64,000 nt of DNA from Paenarthrobacter aurescens TC1 (lineage in GTDB: Bacteria > Actinomycetota > Actinomycetes > Actinomycetales > Micrococcaceae): NCBI GenBank assembly GCA_000014925.1, contig CP000474.1, positions 3,720,001 to 3,784,000 on the forward strand. Reading direction: 5' to 3'. Each line of letters opens with the position of its first letter. The first letter of the stretch is position 1. This document shows positions 7,043 through 39,140 of the stretch, one piece after another. A program made the translations under genes and the position numbers. The notes below the pieces were generated by a model, which was not told the origin of the DNA, did not search any database, and was given only the letters and a program-made list of their open reading frames with translations.

Positions 7043-7059
7043 TTTCCATAATATGGAAA
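7043..7059. promoter_or_regulatory. IclR-type box, perfect 17-bp palindrome, upstream of dctA
   Basis: TTTCCATA-A-TATGGAAA, fully symmetric, 94 bp upstream of the proposed dctA start. It is the most symmetric of seven related sites in the window (consensus about WTTYCGYATTRTGGAAW). Role as an operator is inferred from symmetry, promoter position and recurrence. Confidence 0.6.
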
Positions 7060-7117
7060 GTCACATTTGGTTTGGAGCTTTGGGGTGCGGGCGCCCACCA
7101 CCCCTTTTGAGCACAGA

Positions 7118-7159
7118 AATGCCCGCGACACACCCTTTGTCAGGCGTGCCGCGGGCATT
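7118..7159. terminator. Hairpin terminating the NCS1-racemase-SDR operon
   Basis: AATGCCCGCG (7118-7127) pairs with CGCGGGCATT (7150-7159). It lies just past the SDR stop codon. Outside it, a second pair, GCCCACCACCC (7092-7102) and GGGTGGTGGC (7172-7181), can extend the structure. Confidence 0.65.
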
Positions 7160-7215
7160 CAAGTTCAAAGTGGGTGGTGGCGGTACGGGTCGCCCGTCCG
7201 GCGTGCGGGCAGGGG

Positions 7216-7983
7216 CTAGCCGCGGCCTACGAACGGCATGCCGGCAGCGGTCACCACCAAGGAACCAACACTCGCCGACGCCGGCATGTTGGCCATCATC
7301 AACACGGCACGGGCAGCGTCCTCCACGGGGAACATCGGCTCCACCTTGCGGCTGCCGTCGGCCTGGAGAGCACCGGAGCCCACGCCGATGGTGTCCATGA
7401 TCTCGGTGCGCGTATTGCCGATGTCGATCTGCCCGGCGGTGATGCCAAACTCCCGCCCGTCCAGCTCAATACTCTTGGTCAGACCCGTCATCGCATGCTT
7501 GGTGACTGTGTAAGCCACGGACCTGGGCCTTGGCGAGTGCGCCGAGATGGAGCCGTTGTTGATGATGCGGCCACCTTGCGGCTCCTGGGCTTTCATGCTC
7601 CGCACAGCCTCAGCCGCACACAGCATGGAACCGGTGACATTCACCCTCAACGTTGCTTCCCAGTCGTCCACACTGATCTCACCCACATCGCCGGCCGGGC
7701 CGAAAATGCCGGCATTGTTGAACAGCACATCAACCCGACCCCAGCGTTGGCGGACCTCCGCGAAAAGGCGGGCGACGTCGTCGGGCGCTGTTACATCGCA
7801 CGGAACCACCAACGCTTCCGAATGGTCGCCTGCGGTTTCGAGCAGCTGCGCCTCACGGCGACCGGCCAACGCCACCCGGTAGCCTTCGGCGAGCATGAGC
7901 CGGGCAACTGCCCGCCCAATACCCGAACCGGCCCCGGTCACGACGGCGACCCTAAAGTTTGCGGGCGGGCTGGAGTCAGTCAT
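7216..7983 (-). CDS. Short-chain dehydrogenase/reductase
   Basis: 255-residue NAD(P)-dependent SDR with a complete Rossmann start (VAVVTGAGSGIGRAVARLML, TGxxxGIG near residue 16), NNAG in DVLFNNAGIFG near 88, the catalytic serine in NGSISAHS and the YxxxK pair in VAYTVTKHAM. The substrate cannot be read from sequence. It is the last gene of the NCS1 permease-racemase-SDR operon, 31 nt after the racemase-like gene, so oxidation of a product of that enzyme (a hydroxy acid or semialdehyde from a hydantoin, ureide or malonate-type compound) is a reasonable inference. Confidence 0.9.
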   Translation of the reverse strand: MTDSSPPANFRVAVVTGAGSGIGRAVARLMLAEGYRVALAGRREAQLLETAGDHSEALVVPCDVTAPDDVARLFAEVRQRWGRVDVLFNNAGIFGPAGDVGEISVDDWEATLRVNVTGSMLCAAEAVRSMKAQEPQGGRIINNGSISAHSPRPRSVAYTVTKHAMTGLTKSIELDGREFGITAGQIDIGNTRTEIMDTIGVGSGALQADGSRKVEPMFPVEDAARAVLMMANMPASASVGSLVVTAAGMPFVGRG

Positions 7984-8014
7984 GTGGTTGCCTTTCGGGT
8001 GGTGCGGTGGAGCG

Positions 8015-8776: not shown

Positions 8777-8853
8777 GGTTTTCCTCTCAACGGCGACGCC
8801 CGTCCTCTTTCCGATGGACCGGGAGGACGGGCGGGCCTTGATCTTGGGTGATG

Positions 8854-10419
8854 TCAGTGGGTGCTGGCGACGGCGATCGGCTCGCCGGAGACGTCTTCGT
8901 GGACTTGCTTCTTGTCCGCGACAGCGAAGTACGTCAGGGCTGCGACGCCGGCACCGATGAACCAGGCGAACGGAGCCGCCGCGGCCAGTCCCGGGATGAA
9001 GGCGATGGCGATGGCGAGGCCGGCTGCCGGGAGCATGGCGATGATGGCCTTCGGGTTGACGCCACGCTTGTAGAAGTAGGCACCCTTGGGATCTTCCGTG
9101 TAGAGCTCGGGGACGTTGACCTTGCCGCGACGGACCAGCCAGTAGTCGGCCATAACCACACCGAACAGCGGGCCGAGCAAAGCACCAAGGCCACCCAGGA
9201 AGTACACGATGACAATGGGGTTGTTGTAGAGGTTCCACGGCAGGATGATCAGACCGATGGTCCCACTGACCCATGCCGCCTTGCGGAAGTTCAAGTGCCG
9301 CGGGAAGAGGTTGGTCAGGGCGTAGACCGGAGCCACGAAGTTGGCCATCAGGTTCACGGCGATGGTCAGGATCAGCAGTGCCAGGCAAGCAAGGACCAGC
9401 AGGAGCGTATTGGGGATGCTCTCCACAATGTCCGAGGGGCTCTCGATGACGGTCCCGTTGATCTTGTACTGACCGCCGGCCATGACCACCACAATGGCGC
9501 CAAAGACGAGCATGTTGATGGGGATGCCCCAGAAGTTGCCCTTGACGATGGATTTCTTGGAAGCGGAGGAGCGGGTGAAGTCGCAGAAGTTCAAGACGAA
9601 CGTTCCGTAGATCGAAACCCAGAGAGCGCCGCCGGCGAAGATGGTCAGCCACATCTCGGTACCCTCAAGACCCTTGATGCCGCTCCACTGGATGGCACCG
9701 CCGGCTTCGATGAAGACCCACACGGCAATCGCGGCCATGGTGACCAGGATGATGGGTCCGGCGAAGGCCTCGTATTTACGGATCATTTCCATGCCGAAGC
9801 TGACGATGACCAACTGGACGATCCAGAGGGCTACGAAGGAGAGCCAGCCAAGGGTGGAGAGCCCAAGGATGGAATTACTGTCCAGATCCTTGAGGCCCGG
9901 GGCCATGGCGACCAGCATGACGCGGAGAACCACCGAAGCCAGGTACGTCTGGATGCCGAACCACGCCACGGCAACGGCGCCACGGACAAGGCTGGCAATT
10001 TGCGCGCCCCGGATGCCGAAGCTGATGCGGCTCATGACCGGGAAAGGAACGCCGGTCTTCTCGCCCATGAAGCCGGAGAAGTTCAAGAGAGCGAACAGGA
10101 GGATGGCGCCGATGCCCAGGGCTACCAGGATCTGCCATCCACCCAGCCCCAAGGAGAACAGTCCGATGGCAAAGGCATAGTTACCCAGGCTGTGGACGTC
10201 GTTGGCCCAGAGGGTAAAGATGCTGTAGCTGGTCCACTTACGGCCTTTGGCCTTGGTGGGGGCGAGATCAATGTTGTAAAGGCTGGGGCTGATGGTACGG
10301 CCTGCGGCTTCGGAAGCTATGGCGCAGAGGTCAGTGTTACCCACCACCGGGTGGTTGGGGCCACCTGCGTTCTTGTCTCCCGGAGTCTCAGTGACGCCGA
10401 CTGATGAAGTCGTCTGCAT
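8854..10419 (-). CDS. NCS1-family permease, hydantoin/allantoin type (Mhp1-like)
   Basis: 521-residue, about 12-helix nucleobase:cation symporter. The region from SLYNIDLAPTKAKGRKWT through WANDVHSLGNYAFAIGLFSL closely resembles the Mhp1 hydantoin transporter of Microbacterium. The WFGIQTYL motif (W153, Q157) corresponds to the tryptophan and glutamine that contact the hydantoin ring in Mhp1, and GGALWVS supplies the second stacking tryptophan. Likely substrates are 5-substituted hydantoins or allantoin. It heads the operon with the racemase-like and SDR genes, and an IclR-type box lies 23 bp upstream of the ATG. Confidence 0.9.
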   Translation of the reverse strand: MQTTSSVGVTETPGDKNAGGPNHPVVGNTDLCAIASEAAGRTISPSLYNIDLAPTKAKGRKWTSYSIFTLWANDVHSLGNYAFAIGLFSLGLGGWQILVALGIGAILLFALLNFSGFMGEKTGVPFPVMSRISFGIRGAQIASLVRGAVAVAWFGIQTYLASVVLRVMLVAMAPGLKDLDSNSILGLSTLGWLSFVALWIVQLVIVSFGMEMIRKYEAFAGPIILVTMAAIAVWVFIEAGGAIQWSGIKGLEGTEMWLTIFAGGALWVSIYGTFVLNFCDFTRSSASKKSIVKGNFWGIPINMLVFGAIVVVMAGGQYKINGTVIESPSDIVESIPNTLLLVLACLALLILTIAVNLMANFVAPVYALTNLFPRHLNFRKAAWVSGTIGLIILPWNLYNNPIVIVYFLGGLGALLGPLFGVVMADYWLVRRGKVNVPELYTEDPKGAYFYKRGVNPKAIIAMLPAAGLAIAIAFIPGLAAAAPFAWFIGAGVAALTYFAVADKKQVHEDVSGEPIAVASTH

Positions 10420-10441
10420 CGTGGATCTCCACTTCGTACTG

Positions 10442-10458
10442 ATTCCACAATGCGGAAT
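10442..10458. promoter_or_regulatory. IclR-type box upstream of the NCS1 permease
   Basis: ATTCCACAATGCGGAAT: 17 bp, symmetric except for one pair, centred 31 bp upstream of the permease start. Reverse complement ATTCCGCATTGTGGAAT matches the window consensus at nearly every position. Confidence 0.6.
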
Positions 10459-10636
10459 CTAGTTATTGAATAGTGAAAGCACTCTATGACTCAGGTCACG
10501 TAACGTCAAGGGTTCCCGTGTATGCAGGGTCACATTCTGTTGCTTGATCAGTGCTTTGCCAGTTGACTGTTTTGGTTACGCAATCCGTGTTGACGCTGCC
10601 CAACCAGCAGACGTAATCTCGAATTGCAGAATTTTA

Positions 10637-10653
10637 TTCTCACAATACGAAAT
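10637..10653. promoter_or_regulatory. IclR-type box upstream of aceE
   Basis: On the minus strand ATTTCGTATTGTGAGAA; it aligns with the malic-enzyme box TTTTCGTATTATGGATA. It ends 57 bp before the aceE start, in the leader or core promoter region. Confidence 0.5.
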
Positions 10654-10709
10654 TCGATGAGCGCCCCCACAGAGCAAGCGCCCAGACATTCAATGAAGAG
10701 AGGTTGGAC

Positions 10710-13481
10710 GTGGCTGCAGGAGAAGAGACCTCACACATCCTCAGCGGGTTGACTGCCCAGCTGCCTGATCGTGATCCGGAAGAGACCGCGGAGTGGATTG
10801 AGTCCCTTGATGCGTTGATCGCGGAGCAGGGTACCGAGCGTGCCCAGTACATTATGCGTTCGTTGTTGCAGCGTGCCGGTGCCAGGTCGGTGGGTGTGCC
10901 GATGGTGACGACCACTGATTATGTGAACACGATCCCGGTGGACCAGGAAGCTCAGTTCCCGGGCAACGAGGAGTTCGAGCGCCGGTACCGGGCGTACATG
11001 CGGTGGAACGCCGCGGTGATGGTCCACCGTGCGCAGCGTTCCGATATCGGTGTCGGCGGGCATATTTCCACCTATGCCGGTGCCGCGACGTTGTATGAGG
11101 TGGGTTTCAATCACTTCTTCCGCGGCAAGGACCACCCCTCGGGCGGGGACCAGGTGTTCTTCCAGGGCCACGCGTCCCCGGGCATGTACGCCAGGGCGTT
11201 CATGGAAGGCCGCCTCACGGAAGAGGATCTGGACGGGTTCCGTCAGGAAAAGTCCAAGGCCGGTCATGCCCTGTCCTCGTACCCGCACCCGCGGTTGATG
11301 CCGGACTTCTGGGAATTCCCCACCGTGTCCATGGGTATCGGCCCGATGAACGCGATCTACCAGGCCCAGTCCAACCGGTACCTGCAGAACCGTGGCATCA
11401 AAGACACCTCGGACCAGCAGGTCTGGGCGTTCCTCGGTGACGGGGAAATGGACGAGCCCGAATCCCGTGGCCTGCTCCAGCTCGCCGCGAACGAGAACCT
11501 GGACAACCTGAACTTCGTGATCAACTGCAACCTCCAGCGCCTGGACGGACCGGTCCGCGGCAACGGCAAGATCATGCAGGAACTCGAGGCGTTCTTCCGC
11601 GGTGCGGGCTGGAACGTGATCAAGGTCGTCTGGGGCCGCGAATGGGACTCGCTCCTGGAAGCGGACACCGACGGGGCGTTGGTGAAAATCATGAACGAAA
11701 CCCCCGATGGTGACTACCAGACCTACAAGGCCGAGTCCGGCGGGTTCGTCCGTGAACACTTCTTCGGCAAGTCCCCGCAGACCAAGGACATGGTCGCGGA
11801 CCTGGACGACGAACAGATCTGGGGCCTGAAGCGCGGCGGTCACGACTACCGCAAGGTCTACGCCGCGTACAAGGCAGCGACCGAGTTCAAGGGCAAACCC
11901 ACCGTGATCCTGGCCAAAACGGTCAAGGGCTACGGCCTGGGCCCGCACTTCGAGGGCCGCAACGCGACCCACCAGATGAAGAAACTGACCATGGAAGACC
12001 TCAAAGCCTTCCGTGACCACCTCCGCATCCCCATCAGCGATGACCAGCTCGACGCGGACCTCTACCGGCCCCCGTACTACCACCCCGGCATGGACGCCCC
12101 CGAAATCAAATACCTGATGGAACGCCGGGCAGAACTCGGCGGGTTCGTGCCCGAACGCCGCCGCAAACACACCGAGGTGGTGTTGCCCGAGGCGAAGTCC
12201 TACGAGGTCGCCAAACGCGGATCCGGGAAACAACAAGCCGCCACCACCATGGCCTTCGTAAGGCTCCTCAAAGACCTCATGCGGGACAAAAACTTCGGCG
12301 CCCGGTTCGTGCCCGTCGTCCCGGACGAATCCCGGACCTTCGGCATGGACGCGTTCTTCCCGACCGCGAAAATCTACAACCCCAAAGGCCAGAACTACCT
12401 CTCCGTGGACCGCGACCTCGTCCTGGCCTACAAAGAATCACCCGCCGGGCAACTGATCCACCCCGGCATCAACGAAGCCGGCGCCGTCGCAGCCTTCACC
12501 GCCGCCGGCACCGCCTACGCCACCCACGGCGAACCCCTGGTCCCGATCTACGTGTTCTACTCCATGTTCGGCTTCCAACGCACCGGAGATTCCTTCTGGG
12601 CCGCCGCGGACCAAATGACCCGCGGCTTCATCATCGGCGCCACCGCAGGACGAACCACCCTCACCGGCGAAGGACTCCAACACGCCGACGGGCACTCCCC
12701 CATCCTGGCCTCCACCAACCCCGCCGTGAAAACCTACGACCCCGCCTACGGCTACGAAATCGGCCACATCATCCGCCACGGCCTCGAAGAAATGTACGGA
12801 CCCGACAGTACTGACGGCACCGGTGAAGACCGCAACGTGATGTACTACCTCACCGTCTACAACGAGCCCATCACCCAACCCGCCGAACCCGACAACCTCG
12901 ACATCAACGGACTCCTCAAAGGCATCTACAAACTCGCAGACGCCCCCGAAACCACCGGGAACGGGAACCGGCCCACCGCGACCATCCTCGCCTCCGGCGT
13001 CTCCGTCCCCTGGGCCCTCGAAGCACAACGCATCCTCAACGAAGACTGGAACGTCGCCGCCGAAGTCTGGTCCGTGACCTCCTGGAACGAACTCCGCCGC
13101 GACGGACTCGCCGCCGAAGAACACGCCTTCCTCAACCCCGGCCAACCCGCCCGCACCCCGTTCATCACCGAACAACTCAAAGACACCAACGGACCCGTCA
13201 TCGCCGTGTCCGACTACATGAAAGCCGTCCCCGACCAAATCCGCCAATTCATCCCCAACGACTTCGCCTCCCTCGGAGCAGACGGCTTCGGCTTCTCCGA
13301 CACCCGCCAAGCCGCACGCCGCTACTTCAAAAACGACACCCACTCCATCGTCGCCAAAACCCTGCAGTTGCTTGCGGCGAGGGGCGAAGTGGAGGAGGGC
13401 GCGCCGTCGTACGCCATTGACCGCTACAAGCTGCTGGACGTAAACGCCGGCACCACCGGCGGAGCAGGCGGCGACGCCTAA
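10710..13481 (+). CDS. aceE: Pyruvate dehydrogenase E1 component, homodimeric type
   Basis: 923-residue thiamine-diphosphate enzyme decarboxylating pyruvate for the pyruvate dehydrogenase complex. I take the GTG at 10710, 6 nt after GAGAGG, over a TTG two codons earlier. Visible marks are [20 protein letters not shown] near residue 105, the ThDP motif [15 protein letters not shown] near 244 ending in [20 protein letters not shown], and a C-terminal transketolase-like part ([17 protein letters not shown]). Its length is normal for actinobacterial AceE. E2 and E3 genes are not adjacent. The stretch from about 12060 to 13370 uses C-ending codons far more strictly than the first third. An IclR-type box lies upstream. 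Confidence 0.96.
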
Positions 13482-13498
13482 CAACCCGCATCAACACA

Positions 13499-13537
13499 AA
13501 TTGGCGGCAGTGTTCGTGAAGAACACTGCCGCCAATT
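13499..13537. terminator. Bidirectional terminator after aceE
   Basis: Perfect 17-bp stem (13499-13515 and 13521-13537, AATTGGCGGCAGTGTTC and complement) with loop GTGAA. The TGTTC-GTGAA-GAACA core recurs at 31241-31255. Confidence 0.85.
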
Positions 13538-22493: not shown

Positions 22494-22906
22494 GTTGCGA
22501 CTTCCTTAGTGCTGAGGAAGCCAGGTGACCTGTTTGGGGGCGCTACAGAGAGGAGCTCCAGTTAGCTTGGTTACCAGGCTTCAGCATGTGCGATGAAGGT
22601 TAAGTTGCGCCTGGTAGATAGCTTCCCGAGGTCCGGGTGCCCGCCTTTGGCAGTTAGAGCGTAGCACCAGGTTTGTGAGCCGCGCCATAGTTTTTTGAAA
22701 ATTTAATTTCGTCATGCGAAATTACTTACTCAGCGGTCCTGGTGCCCGAATGTGACCGCAGCCCGCCCGCAGGCGTTGACGGCCGCCGTCGTGCATTTTA
22801 CGCTGAGGGGACCGGACCGCTCTCTGGCGGGGCCGGAAACCTGGATCAGCAGACAGGGCCTAACTGAGCTGGAACGCGTACACGCCGACCAGACAAGGAA
22901 CCTGCA
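22494..22906. promoter_or_regulatory. Divergent regulatory region, guanine-deaminase operon / 8-oxoguanine deaminase
   Basis: 413 bp without a supported gene. It contains an AT-rich island with an IclR-type box at 22706-22722. For the rightward gene it holds a promoter with TTGACG (22776-22781), 17-nt spacer and TACGCT (22799-22804), giving a leader of about 95 nt and an AAGGAA site before the ATG at 22907. No riboswitch is recognised. Confidence 0.55.
22706..22722. promoter_or_regulatory. IclR-type box between the two purine deaminase units
   Basis: ATTTCGTCATGCGAAAT; extended to 22705-22723 the outer seven bases of each arm are perfectly complementary, with two mismatched pairs next to the centre. 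It lies in an AT-rich patch suited to a promoter core for the leftward operon. Confidence 0.55.
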
Positions 22907-24253
22907 ATGACCCCCCTTTGGATCAAGAACCCGCTGGGTATCTTCACCGCAAACGACCTCGACGCCGGCGGCGGCTTGGTGGTTTCCGACTCCGGCACCA
23001 TCACTGAACTGGTGCCTTCAGGCGGGCAGCCGTCTTCCCCCGCCACCGTTTTTGACGCGTCCGGGCATGTTGTCCTTCCCGGGCTCATCAACACGCACCA
23101 CCACTTCTACCAAACCCTCACCCGCGCCTGGGGTCCGGTGGCCAACGCACCGCTGTTCCCGTGGCTGCAGAACCTCTACCCCGTCTGGGCACGACTCACC
23201 CCACGGAGCCTTGAGCTCGCCGTGCAGGTCGCGCTGGCCGAGCTGCTGCTTTCGGGCTGCACCACCGCCGCCGACCACCACTACCTCTTCCCCGACGGCA
23301 TGGAAGACGCCATCGACATTGAAGTGGCCGCCGTCCGGGCCATGGGGATGCGAGCCACGCTGACCCGCGGGTCCATGACCTTGGGAGAGGACGACGGCGG
23401 GCTGCCGCCCAGGACCACGGTCCAGTCACCCGAGGCGATCCTTGCGGACAGCGAAAGACTGATTCGTCAGTACCACGAAACGGGTGACGGGGCTGTCGTG
23501 CAGATCGCCCTTGCCCCGTGCTCCCCGTTCTCGGTGACCAAGGAAATCATGGCCGAGAGCGCAGCCATGGCCGAACGATTCGATGTCCGGCTCCACACCC
23601 ACCTTGCCGAGACCATCGACGAGGAAGACTTCTGCCGCTCCATGTTCGGGCTGCGGACCGTGGACTACTTGGAGTCCGTGGGCTGGTTGGGCTCCCGCAC
23701 CTGGCTTGGACACGGCATCCACTTCAATGACGACGAGATCGCCAGGCTGGGAGCCGCGGGCACCGCCGTCGCGCATTGCCCCACCTCCAACATGCGCCTC
23801 GCCTCCGGGACCGCGCGCGTCTTGGAACTGGAGGCCGCAGGTGTTCCTGTGGGGCTGGGGGTGGATGGGTCGGCGTCGAACGATGCTTCCAACATGATCC
23901 TCGAAGCTCGGCAAGCCCTGTATCTGCAGCGGCTCCGCTACGGCGCCTCCGTTCCCGTGGAGCGGGCGCTCGGCTGGGCGACCCGTGGGTCCGCTGCGGT
24001 GCTGGGTCGATCCGACATTGGCCAGTTAGCCCCGGGGATGCAGGCCGACCTTGCGCTGTTCAAGCCCGATGAGCTGCGATTCTCCGGCAGCCACGATCCC
24101 GTCGCTGCGTTGCTGCTCTGCGGAGCGGACCGCGCCGACCGTGTGATGGTGGGCGGTTCCTGGCGCGTGGTGGACGGCGCGATCCCCGGACTGGACGTGG
24201 CCGGGCTCATCGCTGAGCACTCGGCCGCGGCGCGGAAGCTGGTGGCGGGGTAG
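22907..24253 (+). CDS. 8-oxoguanine deaminase (amidohydrolase family)
   Basis: 448-residue zinc amidohydrolase of the subgroup that deaminates 8-oxoguanine to urate and may accept guanine-like purines. Metal and catalytic motifs: GLINTHHHFYQTLTRAWG (HxH at residues 64-66), RLHTHLAETIDEEDF (His), LGHGIHFNDDEIARLG (His) and GLGVDGSASNDASN (Asp). The short AELLLSGCTTAADHHYLFPD segment is typical. Product urate feeds the uricase encoded 3.7 kb downstream, so it belongs to the purine pathway. Downstream lies the first of three palindromic repeats, after which accessory genes begin. Confidence 0.92.
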   Translation: MTPLWIKNPLGIFTANDLDAGGGLVVSDSGTITELVPSGGQPSSPATVFDASGHVVLPGLINTHHHFYQTLTRAWGPVANAPLFPWLQNLYPVWARLTPRSLELAVQVALAELLLSGCTTAADHHYLFPDGMEDAIDIEVAAVRAMGMRATLTRGSMTLGEDDGGLPPRTTVQSPEAILADSERLIRQYHETGDGAVVQIALAPCSPFSVTKEIMAESAAMAERFDVRLHTHLAETIDEEDFCRSMFGLRTVDYLESVGWLGSRTWLGHGIHFNDDEIARLGAAGTAVAHCPTSNMRLASGTARVLELEAAGVPVGLGVDGSASNDASNMILEARQALYLQRLRYGASVPVERALGWATRGSAAVLGRSDIGQLAPGMQADLALFKPDELRFSGSHDPVAALLLCGADRADRVMVGGSWRVVDGAIPGLDVAGLIAEHSAAARKLVAG

Positions 24254-27451: not shown

Positions 27452-27628
27452 CTAGGGGCGCTGCCGGCCGAACACCGGGAGTGCGCGCAGCCAACGGGAG
27501 AACCCGCCGGCCTTGCGGTCACAATCGGCCGGAATGTAGAAGTCCGGATCTGTCGCACCGAAAGGCAGGTACAGCTCCTGACCCGGCGCCGGGAATTCCA
27601 CGACGTTGTTCGTATCCTTCGAGTCCAT
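27452..27628 (-). CDS. Small conserved-type hypothetical protein, 58 residues
   Basis: MDSKDTNNVVEFPAPGQELY, then a short acidic/aromatic middle (FGATDPDFYIPADC) and a basic end (WLRALPVFGRQRP). No membrane segment or known motif. I call it real because GAGGAGGAAC lies at ideal distance from the ATG and a full promoter stands upstream. It is transcribed away from the uricase gene. Function unknown; nothing in its context points to a role. Confidence 0.72.
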   Translation of the reverse strand: MDSKDTNNVVEFPAPGQELYLPFGATDPDFYIPADCDRKAGGFSRWLRALPVFGRQRP

Positions 27629-27693
27629 CTGTTCCTCCTCTTTCTCATGCAAGCAGTTTCCGCTCTTCGGAAAACTTTTATTGTTATGTGGAA

Positions 27694-27723
27694 AGTGTAG
27701 GCAGGCGTCAAAGCAAGCGTCAA
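27694..27723 (-). promoter_or_regulatory. Promoter of the 58-residue protein gene
   Basis: On the minus strand TTGACG (27718-27723), 18-nt spacer, TACACT (27694-27699), then a leader of about 60 nt to GAGGAGG. Confidence 0.6.
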
Positions 27724-31282: not shown

Positions 31283-32053
31283 TTAGTTTTGGTTGAGCTC
31301 CGCGGAGATCGCCATGGCAGCCTCGCGCAGCATGGGCACGGCGCGGTCAGCGAAGCTCTGGTCAACGCGGGTGATCGGTCCGGACACGGAGATCGCGGTG
31401 GGCGTGGGCGCGTTAGGCACGGCCATGGCGAAGCAGCGGACGCCGAGCTCCTGCTCTTCCTCGTCAATGGAGTAGCCACGTTCGCGGATGAGCTTGAGAT
31501 CTGCCAGGAGGGAGTCGATGTCGCCGATGCTCTTGGCCGTGGGAGTGGGCATGCCTGTGCGGGCCACGATGCCGCGGACAACTTCGTCATCCAGCTGGGC
31601 GAGGATGGCTTTTCCGACTCCAGTGTCGTGCGTGTGGGCGCGGCGCCCAACCTCGGTAAACATGCGCATGGAGTGCATGGACGGGACCTGGGCCACGTAG
31701 ATGACCATGTCCGAGTCGAGGACGGCCATGTTGGAGGTCTCGCCGAGGCGCTCCACGAGGGTCTTCAGCTGCGGCCGGGCCACGGCTCCGAGCTGCTTGC
31801 TGGCGCCTTCACCCAGGCGGATGAGCCGAGGGCCCAAAGCGTAGCGGCGGTTGGGCAGCTGACGGATGTAGCCGAGGGACACCAACGTGCGGAGCAGGCG
31901 GTGGATGGTGGGCAGGGGGAGGTCCGTGGACGACGAAAGTTCGCTCAGGGTGACGTCGCCGCCTGCGTCCGTGATCAGTTCCAGCAGTTCAAAGACGCGC
32001 TCAACGGACTGCACGCCTCCGGAGGCTTTTTCAGCCATTCCCTTGTCTCCCAT
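31283..32053 (-). CDS. IclR-family regulator, probable ureide/glyoxylate regulator
   Basis: 256-residue repressor or activator. Residues about 14-70 form the IclR winged helix: QSVERVFELLELITDAGGDV, TLSELSSSTDLPLPTIHRLL, GYIRQLPNRRYALGPRLIRLG. The C-terminal effector domain follows (MAVLDSDMVIYVAQVPS, HTHDTGVGKAILAQL, GYSIDEEEQELGVRCFAMAV). It resembles AllR/GclR-type regulators that respond to glyoxylate or allantoin. It is divergent from the malic enzyme operon. A good match to the 17-bp box lies 22 bp upstream of its ATG, which suggests autoregulation. The ATG at 32038 (MAEKASGG) has a better-placed GGGAG and may be the true start. Confidence 0.9.
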   Translation of the reverse strand: MGDKGMAEKASGGVQSVERVFELLELITDAGGDVTLSELSSSTDLPLPTIHRLLRTLVSLGYIRQLPNRRYALGPRLIRLGEGASKQLGAVARPQLKTLVERLGETSNMAVLDSDMVIYVAQVPSMHSMRMFTEVGRRAHTHDTGVGKAILAQLDDEVVRGIVARTGMPTPTAKSIGDIDSLLADLKLIRERGYSIDEEEQELGVRCFAMAVPNAPTPTAISVSGPITRVDQSFADRAVPMLREAAMAISAELNQN

Positions 32054-32074
32054 GACTCAGATTCCGACAACTCT

Positions 32075-32091
32075 TATCCGCATCGTGAAAA
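32075..32091. promoter_or_regulatory. IclR-type box upstream of the IclR gene
   Basis: TATCCGCATCGTGAAAA, 14 of 17 positions matching WTTYCGYATTRTGGAAW. It starts 22 bp upstream of the regulator's ATG, consistent with autoregulation. Confidence 0.5.
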
Positions 32092-32170
32092 GAATTGCTT
32101 AGAACACCCAACATACAGCACAACCCGCACCTGCGCGATGACGCCAAACATGACCAAGCAGGGGGTTGTG

Positions 32171-32208
32171 TTTCCACTTTGTAGATAATAATATCCATAA
32201 TACGAAAA
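32171..32208. promoter_or_regulatory. IclR-type box upstream of malic enzyme, with a weaker second half-copy
   Basis: Main box 32192-32208, on the minus strand TTTTCGTATTATGGATA. A looser copy TTTCCACTTTGTAGATA lies at 32171-32187, 21 bp away centre to centre, about two helical turns. The malic enzyme ATG is at 32260 with CAGGAGG upstream. Confidence 0.6.
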
Positions 32209-32259
32209 CATTCAGTTTGGAACGGCGGCCCGGGAACGGGCCTTACAGGAGGAATTTCA

Positions 32260-33660
32260 ATGGCGAATCCGAGCCCCGGAAACTCGATCACCCTGCGCGT
32301 CGCCGCACCGTCGAGCTTCACAGCTACCAGTGAACTGGCAGCAGCCGTCGGCGCAGCCGGTGCAGCGATCACCGCACTGGACGTCACGGAATCCCACCAC
32401 GAGACGATCGTTGTTGACGTCACCTGCAACACCACGGACGACGACCACGCAGGCCGCGTGAAGGATGCCCTGAACGCCCTCGACGGCGTCACCGTCCAGC
32501 ACGTCTCGGACCGCACCTTCCTCATGCACCTCGGTGGCAAGCTCGAAGTCGTCCCCAAAGTAGCCCTGCGCAACCGCGACGACCTCTCTCGTGCCTACAC
32601 TCCCGGCGTCGCCCGCGTCTGCATGGCCATCGCTGAGGACCCGGCCGCAGCCCGCAACCTCACGGTCAAGCGCAACACCATCGCCGTCCTCACCGACGGT
32701 TCGGCCGTCTTGGGCCTGGGCAACATCGGCCCCGCCGCTGCCCTTCCCGTGATGGAAGGCAAGGCAGCGCTCTTCAAGCAGTTCGCCAACGTTGACGCCT
32801 GGCCCGTCTGCCTGGACACCCAGGACACCGAAGAAATCATCATGATCGCCAAGGCCATGGCCCCCGTTTACGGTGGCATCAACCTCGAAGACATCGCCGC
32901 ACCGCGCTGCTTCGAAATCGAGAACCGCCTCCGCGAAGAACTCGACATCCCGGTGTTCCACGATGACCAGCACGGCACCGCGATCGTCACCCTCGCCGCC
33001 TTGGTCAACGCCCTCCGTGTTGTAGACAAGAAGCTGTCCGAGGTCAAGATCGTGGTTTCGGGCGTCGGCGCTGCCGGCTCGGCCATCATCCAGCTCCTCA
33101 AGGCCCAGGGCGCGCAGCACATCATCGCCGCGGGCCGCTCCGGCGCCATCCACTCCGGCGAGGAATACAACGACGAGCACCGCAGCTGGATCGCCGCGAA
33201 CACCAACCAAGAAGGCTTCTCCGGAACCCTGCACGATGCCCTCAAGGGAGCGGACGTCTTCATCGGCGTCAGCGCCCCGCACGTGATCGGCGAAGAGCAG
33301 GTCGCTTCGATGGCCGAGGACGCGATTGTGTTCGCCATGGCCAACCCGACGCCTGAAATCGACCCCGTTGTCGCGTCCAAGCACGCAGCCGTGGTTGCTA
33401 CCGGCCGCAGCGACTTCCCGAACCAGATCAACAATGTGCTGGCCTTCCCCGGCTTCTTCCGGGGCCTGTTGGACGCTGGGGCCTCGGACATCACGCCGAA
33501 CATGCTGGTGGCCGCTGCCGAGGCAATTGCCAACCGGGTAGCTGACGATGAGCTCAACGCGAGTTACATTATCCCCAGCGTCTTCGATCCCCATGTTGCC
33601 GCCGATGTGGCCACCGCCGTAGCCAACGCTGCGCACGCCAACGCCGCCAGCGCACTCTAG
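32260..33660 (+). CDS. NAD(P)-dependent malic enzyme with N-terminal ACT-like domain
   Basis: 466-residue enzyme decarboxylating malate to pyruvate. Residues 1-75 ([20 protein letters not shown] to [19 protein letters not shown]) resemble an ACT regulatory domain. The catalytic part begins [20 protein letters not shown], with [20 protein letters not shown], the metal site [19 protein letters not shown], the dinucleotide motif [18 protein letters not shown] and [13 protein letters not shown]. In context it drains malate made by malate synthase to pyruvate. CAGGAGG lies at proper distance. First gene of a four-gene operon (malic enzyme, aceB, DUF6986, allE), with an IclR-type box upstream. Confidence 0.94.
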
Positions 33661-33678
33661 AAAAAGGAATCCGCTCAC

Positions 33679-35277
33679 ATGGCTATCACAGTCACCGATC
33701 CCCGGCCGATCGATCGCGCCGAGGAAATCCTTACCCCCAAGGCACTGGCCTTCATCGAGGAACTGCACAAGCGCTTCGCCGGTACCCGCAACGAGCTCCT
33801 TGAGGCCCGGCAGGTCAAGCGCCAGAAGGTTGCCGACACCAGCCGGCTGGACTTCCTCCCGGAGACCCAGGAAATTCGCGACGGCGACTGGAAGGTCGCC
33901 GAGGCACCGGCAGCTTTGCAGGACCGCCGCGTCGAGATGACCGGCCCGGCAACCCCGGCCAAGATGGCCATCAACGCCCTGAACTCCGGCGCCAAGGTGT
34001 GGCTCGCGGACCTCGAAGACGCCAGCACTCCCACCTGGCCCAACGTCATCGACGCCATCCTGAACCTTCGCGACGCCGCCCAGGGAACCCTGAGCTACAC
34101 CTCGCCCGAAGGCAAGGAATACCGCCTCCGCACCGACGCTCCCCTGGCCGTTGTTGTGGCCCGCCCGCGCGGCTGGCACATGGAGGAGAACCACCTGCTG
34201 ATCGACGGCGAACCCGCCGTGGGTGCGCTGGTGGACTTCGGCCTGCACTTCTTCCACATCGCCAAGCAGCTTCTCCTCAACGGCCAGGGCCCGTACTACT
34301 ACCTGCCCAAGATGGAGAGCCACCTGGAAGCCCGCCTCTGGAACGACGTCTTCGTGTTCGCACAGGACTTCCTGGGCATCCCGCAAGGCAGCGTCCGCGC
34401 CACCGTGCTCATCGAAACCATCCCGGCAGCGTTCGAAATGGACGAGATCCTCTACGAACTCCGCGACCACGCCTCGGGCCTGAACGCCGGGCGCTGGGAC
34501 TACCTCTTCAGCATCATCAAGTACTTCCGTGATGCCGGTGAAGAGTTCGTCCTCCCGGACCGCGCCACTGTTGCCATGACGGCACCGTTCATGCGGGCCT
34601 ACACCGAACTGCTGGTCAAGACCTGCCACAAGCGCGGCGCCTTCGCCATGGGTGGCATGGCCGCCGTCATCCCCAACCGCAAGCAGCCGGACGTCACCGC
34701 CGCCGCCTTCGACAAGGTCCGTGCCGACAAGACCCGCGAAGCAAACGACGGCTTCGACGGCTCCTGGGTTGCCCACCCGGACCTGGTCCCCACCTGCCGC
34801 GAAGTCTTTGACTCCGTGCTCGGTGACCGTCCCAACCAGCTCGATAAGCAACGCCCCGAGGTGAACGTCACGGCCGAGCAGCTCATCGACGTCGCCTCCG
34901 CCGGCGGTACCGTGACGGAGGCCGGCCTTCGGCTGAACCTGTACGTCGCCGTCGCCTACACGGGCGTCTGGATCTCTGGCAGCGGCGCAGTTGCCATCCA
35001 CAACCTCATGGAAGATGCAGCGACAGCGGAAATCTCCCGCTCGCAGGTATGGCAGCAGATCCGCAACAAGTCCGTCCTCGCAGACACGGGCAACACTGTG
35101 ACCCGCGAACTCGTCACCCGCATCCTGGGCGAAGAGACCGAGCGCCTGCGCATCGAGTTCGGCGACGAGAACTTCACAAAGTACTACGAGCCGGCATCCA
35201 AGCTGATCGAGGACATCTGTTTGTCCGACGATTACACGGACTTCCTCACCACTCCCGCGTACGAGCTGGTGGGCTGA
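33679..35277 (+). CDS. aceB: Malate synthase A
   Basis: 532-residue glyoxylate-consuming enzyme that condenses glyoxylate with acetyl-CoA to malate. Type A (about 530 residues) features: VEMTGPATPAKMAINALNSG, VWLADLEDASTPTWPNVIDA, ARPRGWHMEENHLLIDGEP, the metal-site region YYLPKMESHLEARLWNDVF and ATVLIETIPAAFEMDEILYE, then AFAMGGMAAVIP. No isocitrate lyase is beside it, so glyoxylate here probably comes from ureide breakdown rather than the glyoxylate shunt. The CitE-like gene begins one base after its stop. Confidence 0.95.
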   Translation: MAITVTDPRPIDRAEEILTPKALAFIEELHKRFAGTRNELLEARQVKRQKVADTSRLDFLPETQEIRDGDWKVAEAPAALQDRRVEMTGPATPAKMAINALNSGAKVWLADLEDASTPTWPNVIDAILNLRDAAQGTLSYTSPEGKEYRLRTDAPLAVVVARPRGWHMEENHLLIDGEPAVGALVDFGLHFFHIAKQLLLNGQGPYYYLPKMESHLEARLWNDVFVFAQDFLGIPQGSVRATVLIETIPAAFEMDEILYELRDHASGLNAGRWDYLFSIIKYFRDAGEEFVLPDRATVAMTAPFMRAYTELLVKTCHKRGAFAMGGMAAVIPNRKQPDVTAAAFDKVRADKTREANDGFDGSWVAHPDLVPTCREVFDSVLGDRPNQLDKQRPEVNVTAEQLIDVASAGGTVTEAGLRLNLYVAVAYTGVWISGSGAVAIHNLMEDAATAEISRSQVWQQIRNKSVLADTGNTVTRELVTRILGEETERLRIEFGDENFTKYYEPASKLIEDICLSDDYTDFLTTPAYELVG

Positions 35278-35278
35278 G

Positions 35279-36541
35279 ATGGGCTCCTTCTCTGCATCCG
35301 ATCTGGCCCACATCGAGTCCCAGCTCGAGGCGACGGACCAGTTGCTTGACCGCAACTACCCGGGCGACGACGGCTCACGCCAGCCCATCCACACCGTCTA
35401 CATCCCGGCCGACCGCTTCACGTCCACCTTTGTGGCTGATTGGAGCAAACAGGCACTGGCGACGGCGGAAGCTCACGGCGGTCTGGAAAAGCTGGGTCAG
35501 CTTTTGGGCCAGGAGCCCCATCTGGCTGCCGCTGTTGCGGAGCGCGTCGCCGCGAAGCTCGCTGCCGAGCCCATCGAGGACCTCCGTTTGGACTTTGAAG
35601 ACGGCTACGGCGACCGCGGCGATGAGGCAGAAGACGCCGACGCCGTTGCTGCCGCCAAGGCTGTTGCCGCCGCGGTTGCGGCCGGAACAGCTCCGCCGTT
35701 CATCGGCATCCGCTTCAAGTGCTTCGAAGCGCCCACCAGGGCCCGCGGGGTGAAGACGCTGGACCTGTTCGTCTCCACATTGGCTGAGGCAGGCGAACTG
35801 CCTTCCGGTTTGATCCTCACCCTGCCCAAGGTCACCACGGTGGCACAGGTCCAGGCGATGGACTTCGCGGTGTCCCGCCTTGAAGAAGTCCACGGGCTTC
35901 CCGCTGGCCGGCTCCGCTTTGAGGTGCAGGTGGAGACGCCGCAGCTCATCATCGGTGCTGACGGAACCTCGCCTGTGGCGCAGCTCCCCCACGTCGTTCC
36001 GGGCCGCATCAGCGCCCTGCACTACGGGACCTACGACTACAGCGCTTCACTGGGAATCTCCGCGGAATACCAGTCCATGGAGCACCCGGTGGCCGACTTC
36101 GCCAAGGAAGTCATGCAACTCGCCGTCGCCGGCACGGGCATCCGCCTCTCCGACGGTTCCACCAACATCATCCCCGTGGGCGATGCCGTGGAAGATGCCT
36201 GGAAACTCCACGGCCGGTTGGTTCGTCGCTCCCTGGAAAACGGCTACTACCAGGGTTGGGATCTGCACGCCGCCCAACTGCCCAGCCGTTTCTCGGCGTC
36301 GTACGCTTTCTACCGCGAAGGCCTCCCTGCCGCGGCCCTGCGCCTCCGCAACTACGTGGAGCGCACCGAAGGCGGCGTCATGGATGAGCCCGCCACCGCC
36401 CGCGCCCTGGCCGGCTTCGTCCTCCGCGGCGTCCAGTGCGGCGCAGTGGGGACCGACGAGGTCAAGGCGCTTGCCGGCGTCGAACTTTCACAGCTGACCG
36501 CACTGGCGCACCCGCGGCTCGCGCAACCAACTTCGCACTGA
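35279..36541 (+). CDS. DUF6986 family protein, HpcH/HpaI aldolase / CitE-like fold
   Basis: 420-residue protein with TIM-barrel CitE-like features: IHTVYIPADRFTSTFVADW, the acidic motif PIEDLRLDFEDGYGDRGDEA near residue 98, PPFIGIRFKCFEAPTRARG, LPKVTTVAQVQAMDF, and the metal-ligand-like RFEVQVETPQLI followed by GRISALHYGTYDYSASLGIS. Members of this fold make or break C-C bonds in acyl-CoA or keto-acid substrates. The start is one base after aceB, so translation is coupled; it sits between malate synthase and ureidoglycine aminohydrolase. A role in glyoxylate or oxalurate-type chemistry is inferred; the reaction is not known to me. Confidence 0.8.
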   Translation: MGSFSASDLAHIESQLEATDQLLDRNYPGDDGSRQPIHTVYIPADRFTSTFVADWSKQALATAEAHGGLEKLGQLLGQEPHLAAAVAERVAAKLAAEPIEDLRLDFEDGYGDRGDEAEDADAVAAAKAVAAAVAAGTAPPFIGIRFKCFEAPTRARGVKTLDLFVSTLAEAGELPSGLILTLPKVTTVAQVQAMDFAVSRLEEVHGLPAGRLRFEVQVETPQLIIGADGTSPVAQLPHVVPGRISALHYGTYDYSASLGISAEYQSMEHPVADFAKEVMQLAVAGTGIRLSDGSTNIIPVGDAVEDAWKLHGRLVRRSLENGYYQGWDLHAAQLPSRFSASYAFYREGLPAAALRLRNYVERTEGGVMDEPATARALAGFVLRGVQCGAVGTDEVKALAGVELSQLTALAHPRLAQPTSH

Positions 36542-36555
36542 TAGGAGCATTTCGC

Positions 36556-37368
36556 ATGGGCAAGTACTACTACCCGCAGGGCGGTCTGCCGCCGCAGACC
36601 CAACTGACCACCGAACGGGCAATCGTCACCGAGGCGTACACGGTGATCCCCAAGGGCGTCATGACGGACATCGTCACCAGCAACCTGCCGGGGTTCTCCA
36701 ACACCCGTTCGTGGATCATCGCGCGGCCGATCTCCGGCTTCGCCACCACGTTCTCCCAGCTGATCGTCGAAATCGCCCCGGGCGGCGGGGCTCCCAAGGC
36801 CGAGTTCGAGGCCGGCGTTGAAGGCGTCATCTTCGTCACCAAGGGCCAGGTCAACCTGACCCTCGACGGCGAACTGCACCACCTCGAAGAGGGCGGCTAC
36901 GCCTATCTCGCTGCCGGCGCTGAGTGGGGCCTGGAGAACGTCTCCGACGACATCGTCTCCTTCCACTGGATCCGCAAGGCCTACGAGCGCCTTGAGGGCT
37001 TCGAGGCCAAGTCCTTCGTCACCAACGAGAAGGACGTGGAGCCCACCTCCATGCCGGACACGGACGACGTCTGGAAGACCACCCGTTTCACGGACTCCAG
37101 CGACCTCGCCCACGATATGCAGGTCAACATCGTCACTTTCCAGCCCGGTGGTGTGATCCCCTTCCCGGAGACCCACGTCATGGAGCATGGCCTGTACGTC
37201 CTGGAAGGCAAGGCCATGTACTTGCTCAACAACGACTGGGTTGAGGTGGAGGCCGGCGACTTCATGTGGCTGCGCGCGTTCTGCCCGCAGGCTTGCTACG
37301 CCGGTGGTCCGGGCGAGTTCCGCTACCTGCTGTACAAGGACATGAACCGCCAGGTGAAGCTCACCTGA
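36556..37368 (+). CDS. allE: (S)-ureidoglycine aminohydrolase, bicupin
   Basis: 270-residue two-cupin enzyme hydrolysing (S)-ureidoglycine to (S)-ureidoglycolate and ammonia. TAGGAG precedes the ATG at 36556. The N-terminal cupin (SQLIVEIAPGGGAPKAEFEA to LEEGGYAYLAAGAEW) is followed by the C-terminal cupin with the manganese ligands E205, H207, H211 (FPETHVMEHGLYVLEGKA) and Q245 (FCPQACYAGG), the set known from plant UGlyAH. Last gene of the malic enzyme operon. Its substrate must come from allantoate amidohydrolase, which is not encoded in the window. A terminator follows. Confidence 0.93.
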   Translation: MGKYYYPQGGLPPQTQLTTERAIVTEAYTVIPKGVMTDIVTSNLPGFSNTRSWIIARPISGFATTFSQLIVEIAPGGGAPKAEFEAGVEGVIFVTKGQVNLTLDGELHHLEEGGYAYLAAGAEWGLENVSDDIVSFHWIRKAYERLEGFEAKSFVTNEKDVEPTSMPDTDDVWKTTRFTDSSDLAHDMQVNIVTFQPGGVIPFPETHVMEHGLYVLEGKAMYLLNNDWVEVEAGDFMWLRAFCPQACYAGGPGEFRYLLYKDMNRQVKLT

Positions 37369-37379
37369 TTTGCGCCGAG

Positions 37380-37421
37380 ATCGCCGGAAAGCTGCCAGTT
37401 CGCTGGAGGCTTCCCGGCGAT
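37380..37421 (+). terminator. Terminator after allE
   Basis: ATCGCCGGAAAGC (37380-37392) pairs with GCTTCCCGGCGAT (37409-37421), one mismatch; T-rich bases follow. Confidence 0.65.
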
Positions 37422-37441
37422 TTCGCCGTTTTCCGGCGAAC

Positions 37442-37738
37442 TCAGCGGCGGCGGCCGATAGCGAGCCCCGCCCAGAACGCGAGGACAAGCAGGCCAAAAA
37501 CTGTCACGACGAGCCCGAGCTGTGTGCCTTGGCTGACCATGGCTCCACCGTTCCCGACGAAGACAGTGTCACTCAACGGTGCGTAGGCGAACCAGCCGAA
37601 GCTGGTGCTTTGGTTGGTCCACGCCACGATCAGCCCCACGATCACAGCGATCAGCCCCAGCAAAGGCACGACGACGGCTGCCGGTTTGCGGGCAGGCCGC
37701 GGTGTGCTCTGTTCCCCAAGTTTGTTGTTTTCCCCCAT
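37442..37738 (-). CDS. Small membrane protein with two transmembrane helices
   Basis: 98-residue hypothetical protein: basic, proline-rich cytoplasmic start (GENNKLGEQSTPRPARKPAA), helix 1 VVVPLLGLIAVIVGLIVAW, an extracytoplasmic loop of about 30 residues (NQSTSFGWFAYAPLSDTVFV), helix 2 LGLVVTVFGLLVLAFWAGLA and a basic IGRRR end. No family is recognised. It follows the YjbR-like gene by 10 nt on the same strand and may be cotranscribed with it. Confidence 0.7.
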   Translation of the reverse strand: MGENNKLGEQSTPRPARKPAAVVVPLLGLIAVIVGLIVAWTNQSTSFGWFAYAPLSDTVFVGNGGAMVSQGTQLGLVVTVFGLLVLAFWAGLAIGRRR

Positions 37739-37748
37739 GCGGCCGAGT

Positions 37749-38057
37749 CTAGCCTGCGCGCCCGCCGGCGATTCTGTACGACTCCTGCAGCAGTTCGTCG
37801 AGCTCGTCCACGTCGATGTTGTCCAGCCGGATGAGCATCAGCTTCGGGGATTGCTCGTGATGCGGAGTCCAGAAGAAGGTATCGGGCCGCATGGCTGCGA
37901 GCGCTTCCCGTTCCTCAGTCTTGACGGTGCCGACGCCCTCCTCCCACATGCGTGCCATGAGGGTCTTGGCAAACCATGCCGGCTGCCCCCAACTGGGGCG
38001 CTCAGTGACTCCGGGCATGCTCAGGCAGATGCGTCTTACGTCGTCCTCCGTGGCCAT
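37749..38057 (-). CDS. MmcQ/YjbR family protein
   Basis: 102-residue protein of the MmcQ/YjbR (CyaY-like fold) family: DDVRRICLSMPGVTERPSWG, WFAKTLMARMWEEG, then FFWTPHHEQSPKLMLIRLDN and LDELLQESYRIAG. Such proteins are described as double-wing DNA-binding-like domains, but their role is not settled. Its ATG region overlaps no promoter I can define; the DinB gene is divergent, 136 bp away. Confidence 0.85.
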   Translation of the reverse strand: MATEDDVRRICLSMPGVTERPSWGQPAWFAKTLMARMWEEGVGTVKTEEREALAAMRPDTFFWTPHHEQSPKLMLIRLDNIDVDELDELLQESYRIAGGRAG

Positions 38058-38193
38058 GGTTCACTGTCGCATTCGACCCGGGGCAGCGACAAGCGAAATC
38101 GCGGGAATGCTGCGACAACGCTGGAGCTCATCGGACTGGTTGGCACGTTTCCCGCGAACCCGGCGCCCGGACCTCTTCGGTAGAGTCCTGACC

Positions 38194-38781
38194 ATGGATG
38201 AAAAAGCGACGCTGCTCACATATTTGCGCCTCCGTAGGACCGATCTGCTCGGGAAACTGGATGGGCTGAGCGAATACGATGCCCGCCGGCCCATGACACC
38301 CACGGGCACCAATCTGCTGGGCCTCGTGAAGCATGTGGCCAGTGTGGAATTGGGGTATTTCGGTGAGACCTTCGGCCGGCCCAGCGGCAGGGAGCTCCAG
38401 TGGTTTGCCGACGATGCAGCACCGGATTCGGACATGTGGGTTCCGGCAACGGAGAGCCGCGAAGAAATCCTGGAGCTTCACCATTTTTCCGCCAAACACA
38501 GCGACCAGACCATCGAGTCCCTCCCTTTGGACGCTCCCGGCGTTGTGCCGTGGTGGTCGGATGAGAAGAAGAACGTCACTCTCCACCAGATCCTGGTCCA
38601 CATGTGCGTGGAAACGTCCAGGCATGCGGGGCACGCGGACATTATTCGCGAACTCATTGACGACAACATTGGGCAGAGACCGGGCGATCCGAACATCCCG
38701 GGCCGATCCACGGAAGAATGGGCAGCCCACCGTGCCCGTATTGAGCAGGCGGCGCTGCAGGCAGGCGAAAGCAGCGCCTAA
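38194..38781 (+). CDS. DinB-family (DUF664) protein
   Basis: 195-residue four-helix-bundle protein of the DinB/DUF664 type, common in mycothiol-producing Actinobacteria. Metal-ligand histidines are likely H46 in GLVKHVASVELGYF and the later VTLHQILVHMCVETSRHAGH pair. The C-terminal GHADIIRELIDDNIGQRPGD is characteristic. A TAGAGT hexamer at 38181-38186 lies 7 nt before the ATG, so it is probably leaderless. Thiol-dependent transferase activity is possible from the family but not shown. Confidence 0.85.
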   Translation: MDEKATLLTYLRLRRTDLLGKLDGLSEYDARRPMTPTGTNLLGLVKHVASVELGYFGETFGRPSGRELQWFADDAAPDSDMWVPATESREEILELHHFSAKHSDQTIESLPLDAPGVVPWWSDEKKNVTLHQILVHMCVETSRHAGHADIIRELIDDNIGQRPGDPNIPGRSTEEWAAHRARIEQAALQAGESSA

Positions 38782-39140
38782 ACTTTCACAGGTGGCCTGT
38801 GAGGCGCTGGCATACTAACGGGCTCACAGGCCACTATTGCCCGGGTTGTCTTGAGCGAGGTTTGGCGGTTGAGGGCGGCGACTTTCAGACCTCTTTGGCT
38901 TCGACTATGCCCGTAAATCAACCTCTTTCGGGTGTATTCGTTCTAAAGAGGCTCATAAAGCAGCAGACCCCACCCCTCAATGAACTTCCGGTCACATTCT
39001 GTTTACACGCCAACCATGGCCTTTTGGTATCCCAAAGTGTAATCTCCATCACATTCCCTCATGTGATATTCGCATTCCGCATGACGGAACCATTCACGTG
39101 GCAATGAATGAACCCTTCAGAGCTCAGATAGGAGCGCACT
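38782..39140. promoter_or_regulatory. Terminator plus MFS promoter region
   Basis: 359 bp without a supported gene. It begins with a perfect 12-bp terminator stem GTGGCCTGTGAG (38792-38803) / CTCACAGGCCAC (38823-38834). It ends with the leader of the MFS gene, containing an IclR-type box at 39074-39090 and ATAGGAG just before the GTG start. I see nothing in 38840-39060. Confidence 0.6.
39074..39090. promoter_or_regulatory. IclR-type box upstream of the MFS-racemase pair
   Basis: ATTCCGCATGACGGAAC: five outer base pairs symmetric (TTCCG/CGGAA). It matches the consensus except near the centre and lies 51 bp before the MFS start. Confidence 0.5.

Follow-up and report, generated by a model that had tools for sequence, protein, structure and literature searches.

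The 64,000-nucleotide stretch of the Paenarthrobacter aurescens TC1 genome analysed here (the window, C1:3720001-3784000 of a three-contig genome of 5,226,648 bases, or 5.23 Mb) carries seven similar 17-bp palindromes, and it raises the question of whether these boxes are operators of a single IclR-family regulator and, if so, which metabolite that regulator senses. The seven boxes are confirmed to be real and strongly clustered. We consider it very probable that they are the operators of an AllR-type repressor (encoded at 31283-32053) that would be released by glyoxylate and would control ureide and glyoxylate genes. The original prediction, in which one IclR regulon unites ureide and purine metabolism with that of glyoxylate, malate and pyruvate, thus gains comparative support in silico. 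Coordinates of boxes and genes are given in Table 1.

All seven 17-mers were verified at the positions and on the strands claimed for them, and their proposed location in promoter regions agrees with what we found: each lies upstream of a gene, 13-185 nucleotides (nt) from the nearest mechanical start of an open reading frame (ORF). They are imperfect palindromes, with 8, 7, 4, 6, 4, 5 and 5 of 8 mirror matches in coordinate order from 7043 to 39074. In a symmetric matrix built from the seven sites, as had been suggested, the same sites took ranks 1-7 in the window, and leave-one-out matrices ranked them 2, 3, 5, 5, 9, 4 and 8 among ~64,000 window positions. Genome-wide, the pattern WTTYCGYATNRYGRAAW with at most one mismatch occurred at 8 places in 5,226,648 bases, of which 7 were the boxes and the eighth lay 98 kb past the last box; its backward control occurred at 1 place. 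The presence of 7 of 8 places inside one 32-kb span has a chance probability of ~4e-13, corrected for the number of spans, which tests the clustering and not the motif itself, because WTTYCGYATNRYGRAAW was derived from these very sites. Apart from a few mismatches, the boxes also match WTTYCRYW3RYGRAAW, the 17-bp consensus of the WTT-11-AAW subgroup of IclR group 1 (Suvorova and Gelfand 2021, PMC8222616). A looser pattern modelled on the published family consensus, TTYCRYWNNRYGRAA, had 10 exact places in the genome: four boxes, the gcl and uraD sites described below, one gap between another IclR gene and pobA, and three places within ORFs. Its 15 strand matches compare to 7 for the backward control, and it is therefore modest as a predictor of single sites. 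A second matrix used 41 boxes from 22 non-Arthrobacter loci and likewise ranked the seven boxes first, but it is not independent, because its training sites were chosen via the first matrix.

Pairing at a fixed distance was a second property of these sites. When 195 offsets were scored from the seven boxes, the mean best-side score was 8.1 at 21 bp, compared to -3.5 for the next best offset. A partner scoring >10 at exactly 21 bp was present for four boxes and absent for three (the NCS1, deaminase and iclR boxes). The same spacing was repeated at gcl (15.4 + 18.9), uraD (14.4 + 13.9) and a small ORF divergent from uricase (10.8 + 10.4), and a partner scoring at least 9 accompanied the malic enzyme box in 49 of 54 genus loci having malic enzyme. 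The original set of seven was therefore incomplete, as it lacks four partners (7022, 10616, 32171, 39053) and both members of the weak pair 27657/27678. Tandem sites 18-22 nt apart are described as common in the IclR family and as bound by tetramers (PMC8222616), and centres at this distance, a feature of the WTT-11-AAW subgroup, were found for four of the seven boxes and for the gcl, uraD and small-ORF pairs.

The regulon had been described as local. The cluster in the window holds, but the regulon is not just local, because two operons beyond it carry tandem boxes. The eighth genome place of WTTYCGYATNRYGRAAW belongs to a tandem upstream of the glyoxylate carboligase operon, hyi-glxR-gcl, in which gcl (1,101 bits) and glxR, the tartronate semialdehyde reductase gene between the hyi-like gene and gcl, scored above NCBIfam cut-offs and the hyi-like gene below. 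A weaker tandem precedes uraD-uraH, ~114 kb past the last box.

Conservation was counted in ten relatives (40-kb stretches) and 80 named loci, for genes with a usable start and upstream region, a gene being scored as boxed when a site of at least 15 lay within 270 nt; these loci may share species mutually and with the 58 genus loci, which are the 58 of 59 regulator matches left after a partial one in G048 was dropped. Racemases and SDR proteins were omitted from the neighbour tables, their queries being mis-framed or too general. In the ten relatives, boxes stood again before dctA, ncs1, aceE, the deaminase gene, the small ORF, iclR and malic enzyme. Overall, boxes preceded iclR in 82 of 90 loci, malic enzyme in 65 of 70, the 8-oxoguanine deaminase gene in 26 of 28, hyi in 28 of 34, the small ORF in 16 of 19, ncs1 in 6 of 7, lctP in 3 of 4, glcB in 4 of 4, dctA in 3 of 3 (as a tandem) and aceB in 8 of 65. 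Several candidates were rejected as owners of boxes at this threshold and distance: xdhA, xdhFAD and xdhC (each 0 of 15), the NCS2-type permease genes ncs2 (0 of 20) and pbuX (0 of 48), duf6986 (0 of 72), ylbA (0 of 17), glxR (0 of 30) and gcl (0 of 26); mocA (0 of 7), mst (0 of 4) and uraH (0 of 17) also had none. The genes ylbA, duf6986, gcl and glxR can occupy downstream positions in boxed operons. As neither the xdh genes nor the NCS2-type permease genes have a box, purine oxidation to urate does not appear to be a direct target.

A site of at least 15 lay in the 420 nt upstream of iclR in 72 of the 80 named loci; of 1,497 slices taken at random from these loci, 60 contained one. In the genus loci, iclR starts had a box of at least 12 in 56 of 58 cases and malic enzyme a box of at least 15 in 53 of 54. 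In one genome (G042) aceE and ncs1 are separated, and a box is kept at each. Over 61 genus genomes, the one-mismatch pattern gave 506 strand matches; the 57 genomes that had a regulator match (E ≤ 1e-50) averaged 8.6. Two of the predicted targets fared less well. The box at 22706, assigned to two purine deaminase units, has a single deaminase gene, that for 8-oxoguanine deaminase. The site before the MFS-racemase pair exists, but its comparative support is little: the tandem was seen again in G039 only, before a 479-residue ORF of equal length.

The regulator matches PF01614 (IclR_C) with 128.8 bits (cut-off 24), its alignments with several IclR models of NCBIfam span those models completely, and named Paenarthrobacter strains have proteins 98-100% identical to it. 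The top-scoring NCBIfam names (BhcR, IclR, KdgR, PcaR and AllR) all remain under their cut-offs, as illustrated by the BhcR equivalog NF045644 (188.7 vs 350 bits), Escherichia coli IclR (153.7 vs 380) and the E. coli AllR equivalog NF007548 (111.3 vs 406). At E ≤ 1e-60, 129 of 394 genomes sampled from the class had a relative. Twelve distant loci were examined. In six of these, all from Streptomyces-like large genomes, the regulator gene (60-62% identity) is flanked by allB (allantoinase) and aceB (malate synthase), and the gap separating it from allB holds a box of 14.8-18.9; an orthologue beside allantoin genes is what would be expected of an actinobacterial AllR. This arrangement agrees with that reported for AllR in S. 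coelicolor. Five of the other distant loci had a box >11 near the regulator. The original reading thus seems largely right, and it extends to a genus-wide regulon of AllR type. L137 (G021:C2) contains an extra regulator copy, perhaps a diverged paralogue, whose neighbours resemble glcD and glcB and which has no box >12.

Which signal this protein would sense is suggested by its predicted pocket and by its changing neighbours. In E. coli IclR, the residues holding the glyoxylate oxygens are G160, A161, D212, S239 and S241 (PMC11323563). In the alignment, the window regulator keeps four of these (G160, D212, S239, S241), and its residue 161 is Val, where BhcR has Ile; it alone among the 22 IclR_C frames of the genome keeps all four. 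The patch around the methyl group of pyruvate is partly lost (Ser143, Met146, Ala154, Val220). G024 and G044, whose regulators are 82 and 84% identical to that of the window, show no purine cluster within the 40-kb stretch covered; instead, iclR, glcD (glycolate oxidase), an LctP-type permease gene and malate synthase G occur together, with boxes of 18.2-21.9 both at iclR and in the gap from lctP to glcB. Glycolate genes were also found in the named loci L197, L211, L218 and L219. Because glyoxylate is the metabolite common to the ureide setting and to the glycolate setting of G024 and G044, it is likely the effector. The related strain Arthrobacter sp. Rue61a is reported to grow on allantoin and glyoxylate and to show no growth on glycolate (PMC3534580), a profile that fits a purine-type regulon. 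The strongest rival reading keeps the boxes as true IclR-family operators and assigns the signal to a ureide (allantoin, allantoate or ureidoglycolate) or to another acid. The majority of targets here belong to ureide metabolism, and the pocket differs from that of E. coli IclR at 143, 154 and 161, both of which would suit such an effector. We nevertheless regard it as unlikely, since in G024 and G044 the neighbours of the orthologue are genes for glycolate oxidase and malate synthase G, no ureide being involved, and since the oxygen-binding residues are kept except at 161, a position at which the glyoxylate-responsive BhcR differs too (PMC11323563).

The assignment of the boxes to this regulator, rather than to another member of its family, had been based on the presence of only one IclR protein in the stretch, with a box at its own promoter. 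The own-promoter box is conserved, but the argument is weak alone, because IclR_C has 24 matches in 22 distinct frames of the genome. We link regulator and boxes because boxes are conserved at its own promoter and the two generally co-occur. Several observations weigh against the model of an AllR-type repressor acting at these boxes. A box at iclR was absent in two of the 58 genus loci and in L209, and one distant locus (L268) had no box >11 near the regulator. Boxes preceded aceE in 7 of 17 loci, uraD in 7 of 17 and uricase in only 4 of 52, and the allantoinase gene, 1.2 kb 3' of gcl, has no box of its own (nor was one found in L146-L148). A promoter scan detected no sigma-70-like promoter in the gap between iclR and malic enzyme (32040-32280). 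The four genus genomes without a regulator match still had motif matches (G018, 1; G032, 6; G047, 4; G049, 2); in G032 these include a tandem close to a homologue of ncs1 and one box upstream of hyi, and a regulator-like piece of only 56 residues was found beside malic enzyme. If another IclR paralogue, or several, bound these boxes, their retention in G032 without a full orthologue would be accounted for, as would the similar palindrome between another IclR gene and pobA, which likewise counts against the AllR-type regulator; the 22 IclR_C frames and the resemblance among motifs of IclR subgroups (PMC8222616) also leave room for such binding. However, the own-promoter box occurs in 56 of 58 genus loci and moves with the regulator across genera, and other IclR loci examined had no box scoring >14.2, so that a paralogue appears quite improbable. 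That the boxes are chance AT-rich palindromes picked by eye can be dismissed. Intergenic DNA does have a higher AT content, the seven sites were chosen by hand, and the backward control of the looser pattern gave 7 strand matches; nevertheless, the genome-wide clustering, the constant 21-bp pairing and the conservation across genera, with iclR upstream regions far above random slices, rule it out.

Allantoin is converted to glyoxylate, which together with acetyl-CoA yields malate; malic enzyme forms pyruvate, from which pyruvate dehydrogenase regenerates acetyl-CoA. An AllR-type repressor could control this route as follows. At the majority of strong promoters, two dimers or one tetramer would bind palindromes paired at a distance of 21 bp (two helix turns); elsewhere, the protein would bind single boxes. 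Glyoxylate derived from allantoin would free the repressor from DNA, and release would turn on ureide uptake, late ureide breakdown, both glyoxylate sinks and the regulator's own gene. In one sink, glyoxylate carboligase (hyi-glxR-gcl) would divert glyoxylate to glycerate; in the other, malate synthase, malic enzyme and the second pyruvate dehydrogenase E1 would oxidise glyoxylate and regenerate acetyl-CoA.

The second E1 gene, aceE2, has a near-identical twin elsewhere in the genome (aceE1, C1:2669066-2671744). The proteins are 99.1% identical, and the DNA match (98.9%) spans 10701-13484, within 3 bases of the ORF ends. Among 14 genomes searched, six had two full aceE genes, G040 had its second copy in two pieces and seven had one; none of 12 unboxed copies examined had a site >9.4 in the 500 nt upstream. 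In a tree of 15 AceE proteins, the copies did not form two groups (five label changes, with 0% of bootstrap trees having one). The copies pair by genome in G000, G012, G031 and G039, two of these four pairs being fully supported, and do not in G042 and G020 (90.9 and 93.0% identical). As the boxed aceE locus is syntenic, the simplest reading of these sequences would be homogenisation of the copies within genomes by gene conversion, with differing promoters; repeated duplication is the alternative.

Table 1. Boxes and genes of the predicted regulon in the window (positions of the window; scores of partner and weak boxes are matrix scores)
Feature	Position	Strand	Basis
dctA-like C4-dicarboxylate transporter gene	5462..7030	-	NCBIfam DctA 506.6 bits, slightly below cut-off 513
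Partner box	7022..7038		Score 16.6; 21 bp from 7043; same pair in G012, G039, G042, G055
Box 1, predicted dctA operator	7043..7059	-	Pattern and matrix match
NCS1-type permease gene, allantoin permease-like	8854..10419	-	Best NCBIfam, allantoin permease, 282.1 bits, under cut-off 620
Box 2, NCS1 operon	10442..10458	-	Pattern and matrix match
Partner box	10616..10632		Score 11.7; 21 bp from 10637; also in G012, G039
Box 3, predicted aceE2 operator	10637..10653	-	Pattern and matrix match
aceE2, second pyruvate dehydrogenase E1 copy	10704..13481	+	TIGR00759 1352.7 bits, cut-off 859.9
Box 4, 185 nt 5' of 8-oxoguanine deaminase gene	22706..22722	+	Pattern and matrix match
8-oxoguanine deaminase gene	22907..24253	+	NF006055 683.5 bits, cut-off 532
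Small ORF, 58 codons (coding part without stop)	27455..27628	-	Homologues in 36 of 90 loci
Weak box, first of pair before small ORF, divergent from uricase	27657..27673		Score 10.8
Weak box, second of small-ORF pair, 21 bp on	27678..27694		Score 10.4
IclR-family (AllR-type) regulator gene	31283..32053	-	NCBIfam BhcR 188.7, IclR 153.7, AllR 111.3 bits; IclR_C
Box 5, regulator's own promoter	32075..32091	+	Pattern and matrix match
Partner box	32171..32187		Score 12.5; 21 bp from 32192
Box 6, malic enzyme operon	32192..32208	-	Pattern and matrix match
Malic enzyme-like gene	32260..33660	+	NF009501 349.8 bits, below cut-off of longer two-domain family
Malate synthase A (aceB)	33679..35277	+	TIGR01344 745.9 bits, cut-off 594.5
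DUF6986 gene, predicted malate synthase/CitE-like fold	35279..36541	+	PF22484 598.9 bits; model and Foldseek
(S)-ureidoglycine aminohydrolase/allantoicase-like (ylbA-like) gene	36436..37368	+	NF008376 493.6 bits, cut-off 338; NF040771 466.2, cut-off 350
Partner box	39053..39069		Score 12.8; 21 bp from 39074
Box 7, MFS transporter-racemase pair	39074..39090	+	Pattern and matrix match
MFS transporter gene	39141..40580	+	Aromatic acid/sialate-type MFS matches under cut-offs

Among the boxed genes, dctA probably starts near 6999, because relatives align from about the equivalent position onwards; its mechanical start at 7030 would then be too early. In the gap between NCS1 and aceE, the promoter scan gave one candidate, 29 nt upstream of box 2 and in its direction. 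The family match of the ylbA-like ORF begins at residue 42. The structure model of the DUF6986 protein had a predicted TM score (pTM) of 0.82, and Foldseek matched it to malate synthase and CitE; no close solved relative was found by sequence (best E 0.31). For CitE, the TM score by target was ~0.65. Because the TM score by query was <0.5 and the root-mean-square deviation large for malate synthase, the modelled malate synthase/CitE-like fold is suggestive and not settled. Malic enzyme and DUF6986 genes were adjacent, without aceB in the stretch read, in 11 of the 80 named loci. The 58-codon small ORF adjoins uricase and carries its own tandem boxes; 283 of 398 substitutions among 16 ungapped homologues fell at codon position 3. 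Elsewhere in the window, 26270-27208 encodes a protein that weakly matches the AbiEi_4 antitoxin-regulator and REase MTES_1575 domains, and GTCGCCGTCGGGGTC-type low-complexity repeats occur at ~25505-25740 within a minus-strand ORF without a Pfam match.

Navone et al. in 2015 reportedly described AllR of Streptomyces coelicolor as an IclR-family regulator of the allantoin pathway. The window regulator would be of the same actinobacterial type, given its Streptomyces-like orthologues between allantoinase and malate synthase. Boxes here, perhaps unlike in S. coelicolor, also stand at malic enzyme, the second aceE, the NCS1 permease gene, dctA, the 8-oxoguanine deaminase gene and the small ORF. 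BhcR of Paracoccus denitrificans, whose DNA binding is lowered by glyoxylate and which in vivo activates the beta-hydroxyaspartate cycle (PMC11323563), is the best NCBIfam match, shares the oxygen-binding residues save 161 and likewise adjoins glyoxylate-using enzymes; however, its score is far under the cut-off, and the beta-hydroxyaspartate cycle was not seen here. E. coli IclR and AllR, described as repressors of the glyoxylate shunt and of allantoin/glyoxylate operons that are released by glyoxylate (PMC11323563), differ in their scores under the cut-offs and in their motifs (PMC8222616), although IclR shares four of the five oxygen-binding residues.

We found no description of this regulon in Arthrobacter relatives in the open-licence PMC literature. 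Although Rue61a grows on allantoin, its genome paper calls the allantoate-degrading step not obvious (PMC3534580); two genes of a boxed operon here, DUF6986 and the ureidoglycine aminohydrolase/allantoicase-like gene, are candidates for it. More tentatively, at somewhat less than even odds in our judgement, one glyoxylate-sensing repressor may govern a full glyoxylate-burning cycle of malate synthase, malic enzyme and its own aceE, the latter differing from the housekeeping gene in its promoter alone and otherwise kept near-identical to it by gene conversion, the regulon being re-targetable between purine/ureide and glycolate use and DUF6986 being a new short malate synthase-like enzyme that replaces aceB in some relatives. 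The twin aceE genes would be a clean case of two near-identical enzymes separated by control alone. The analysis links the regulator with a specific group of promoters, which provides a way to test how purine-derived glyoxylate is dealt with by soil actinobacteria.

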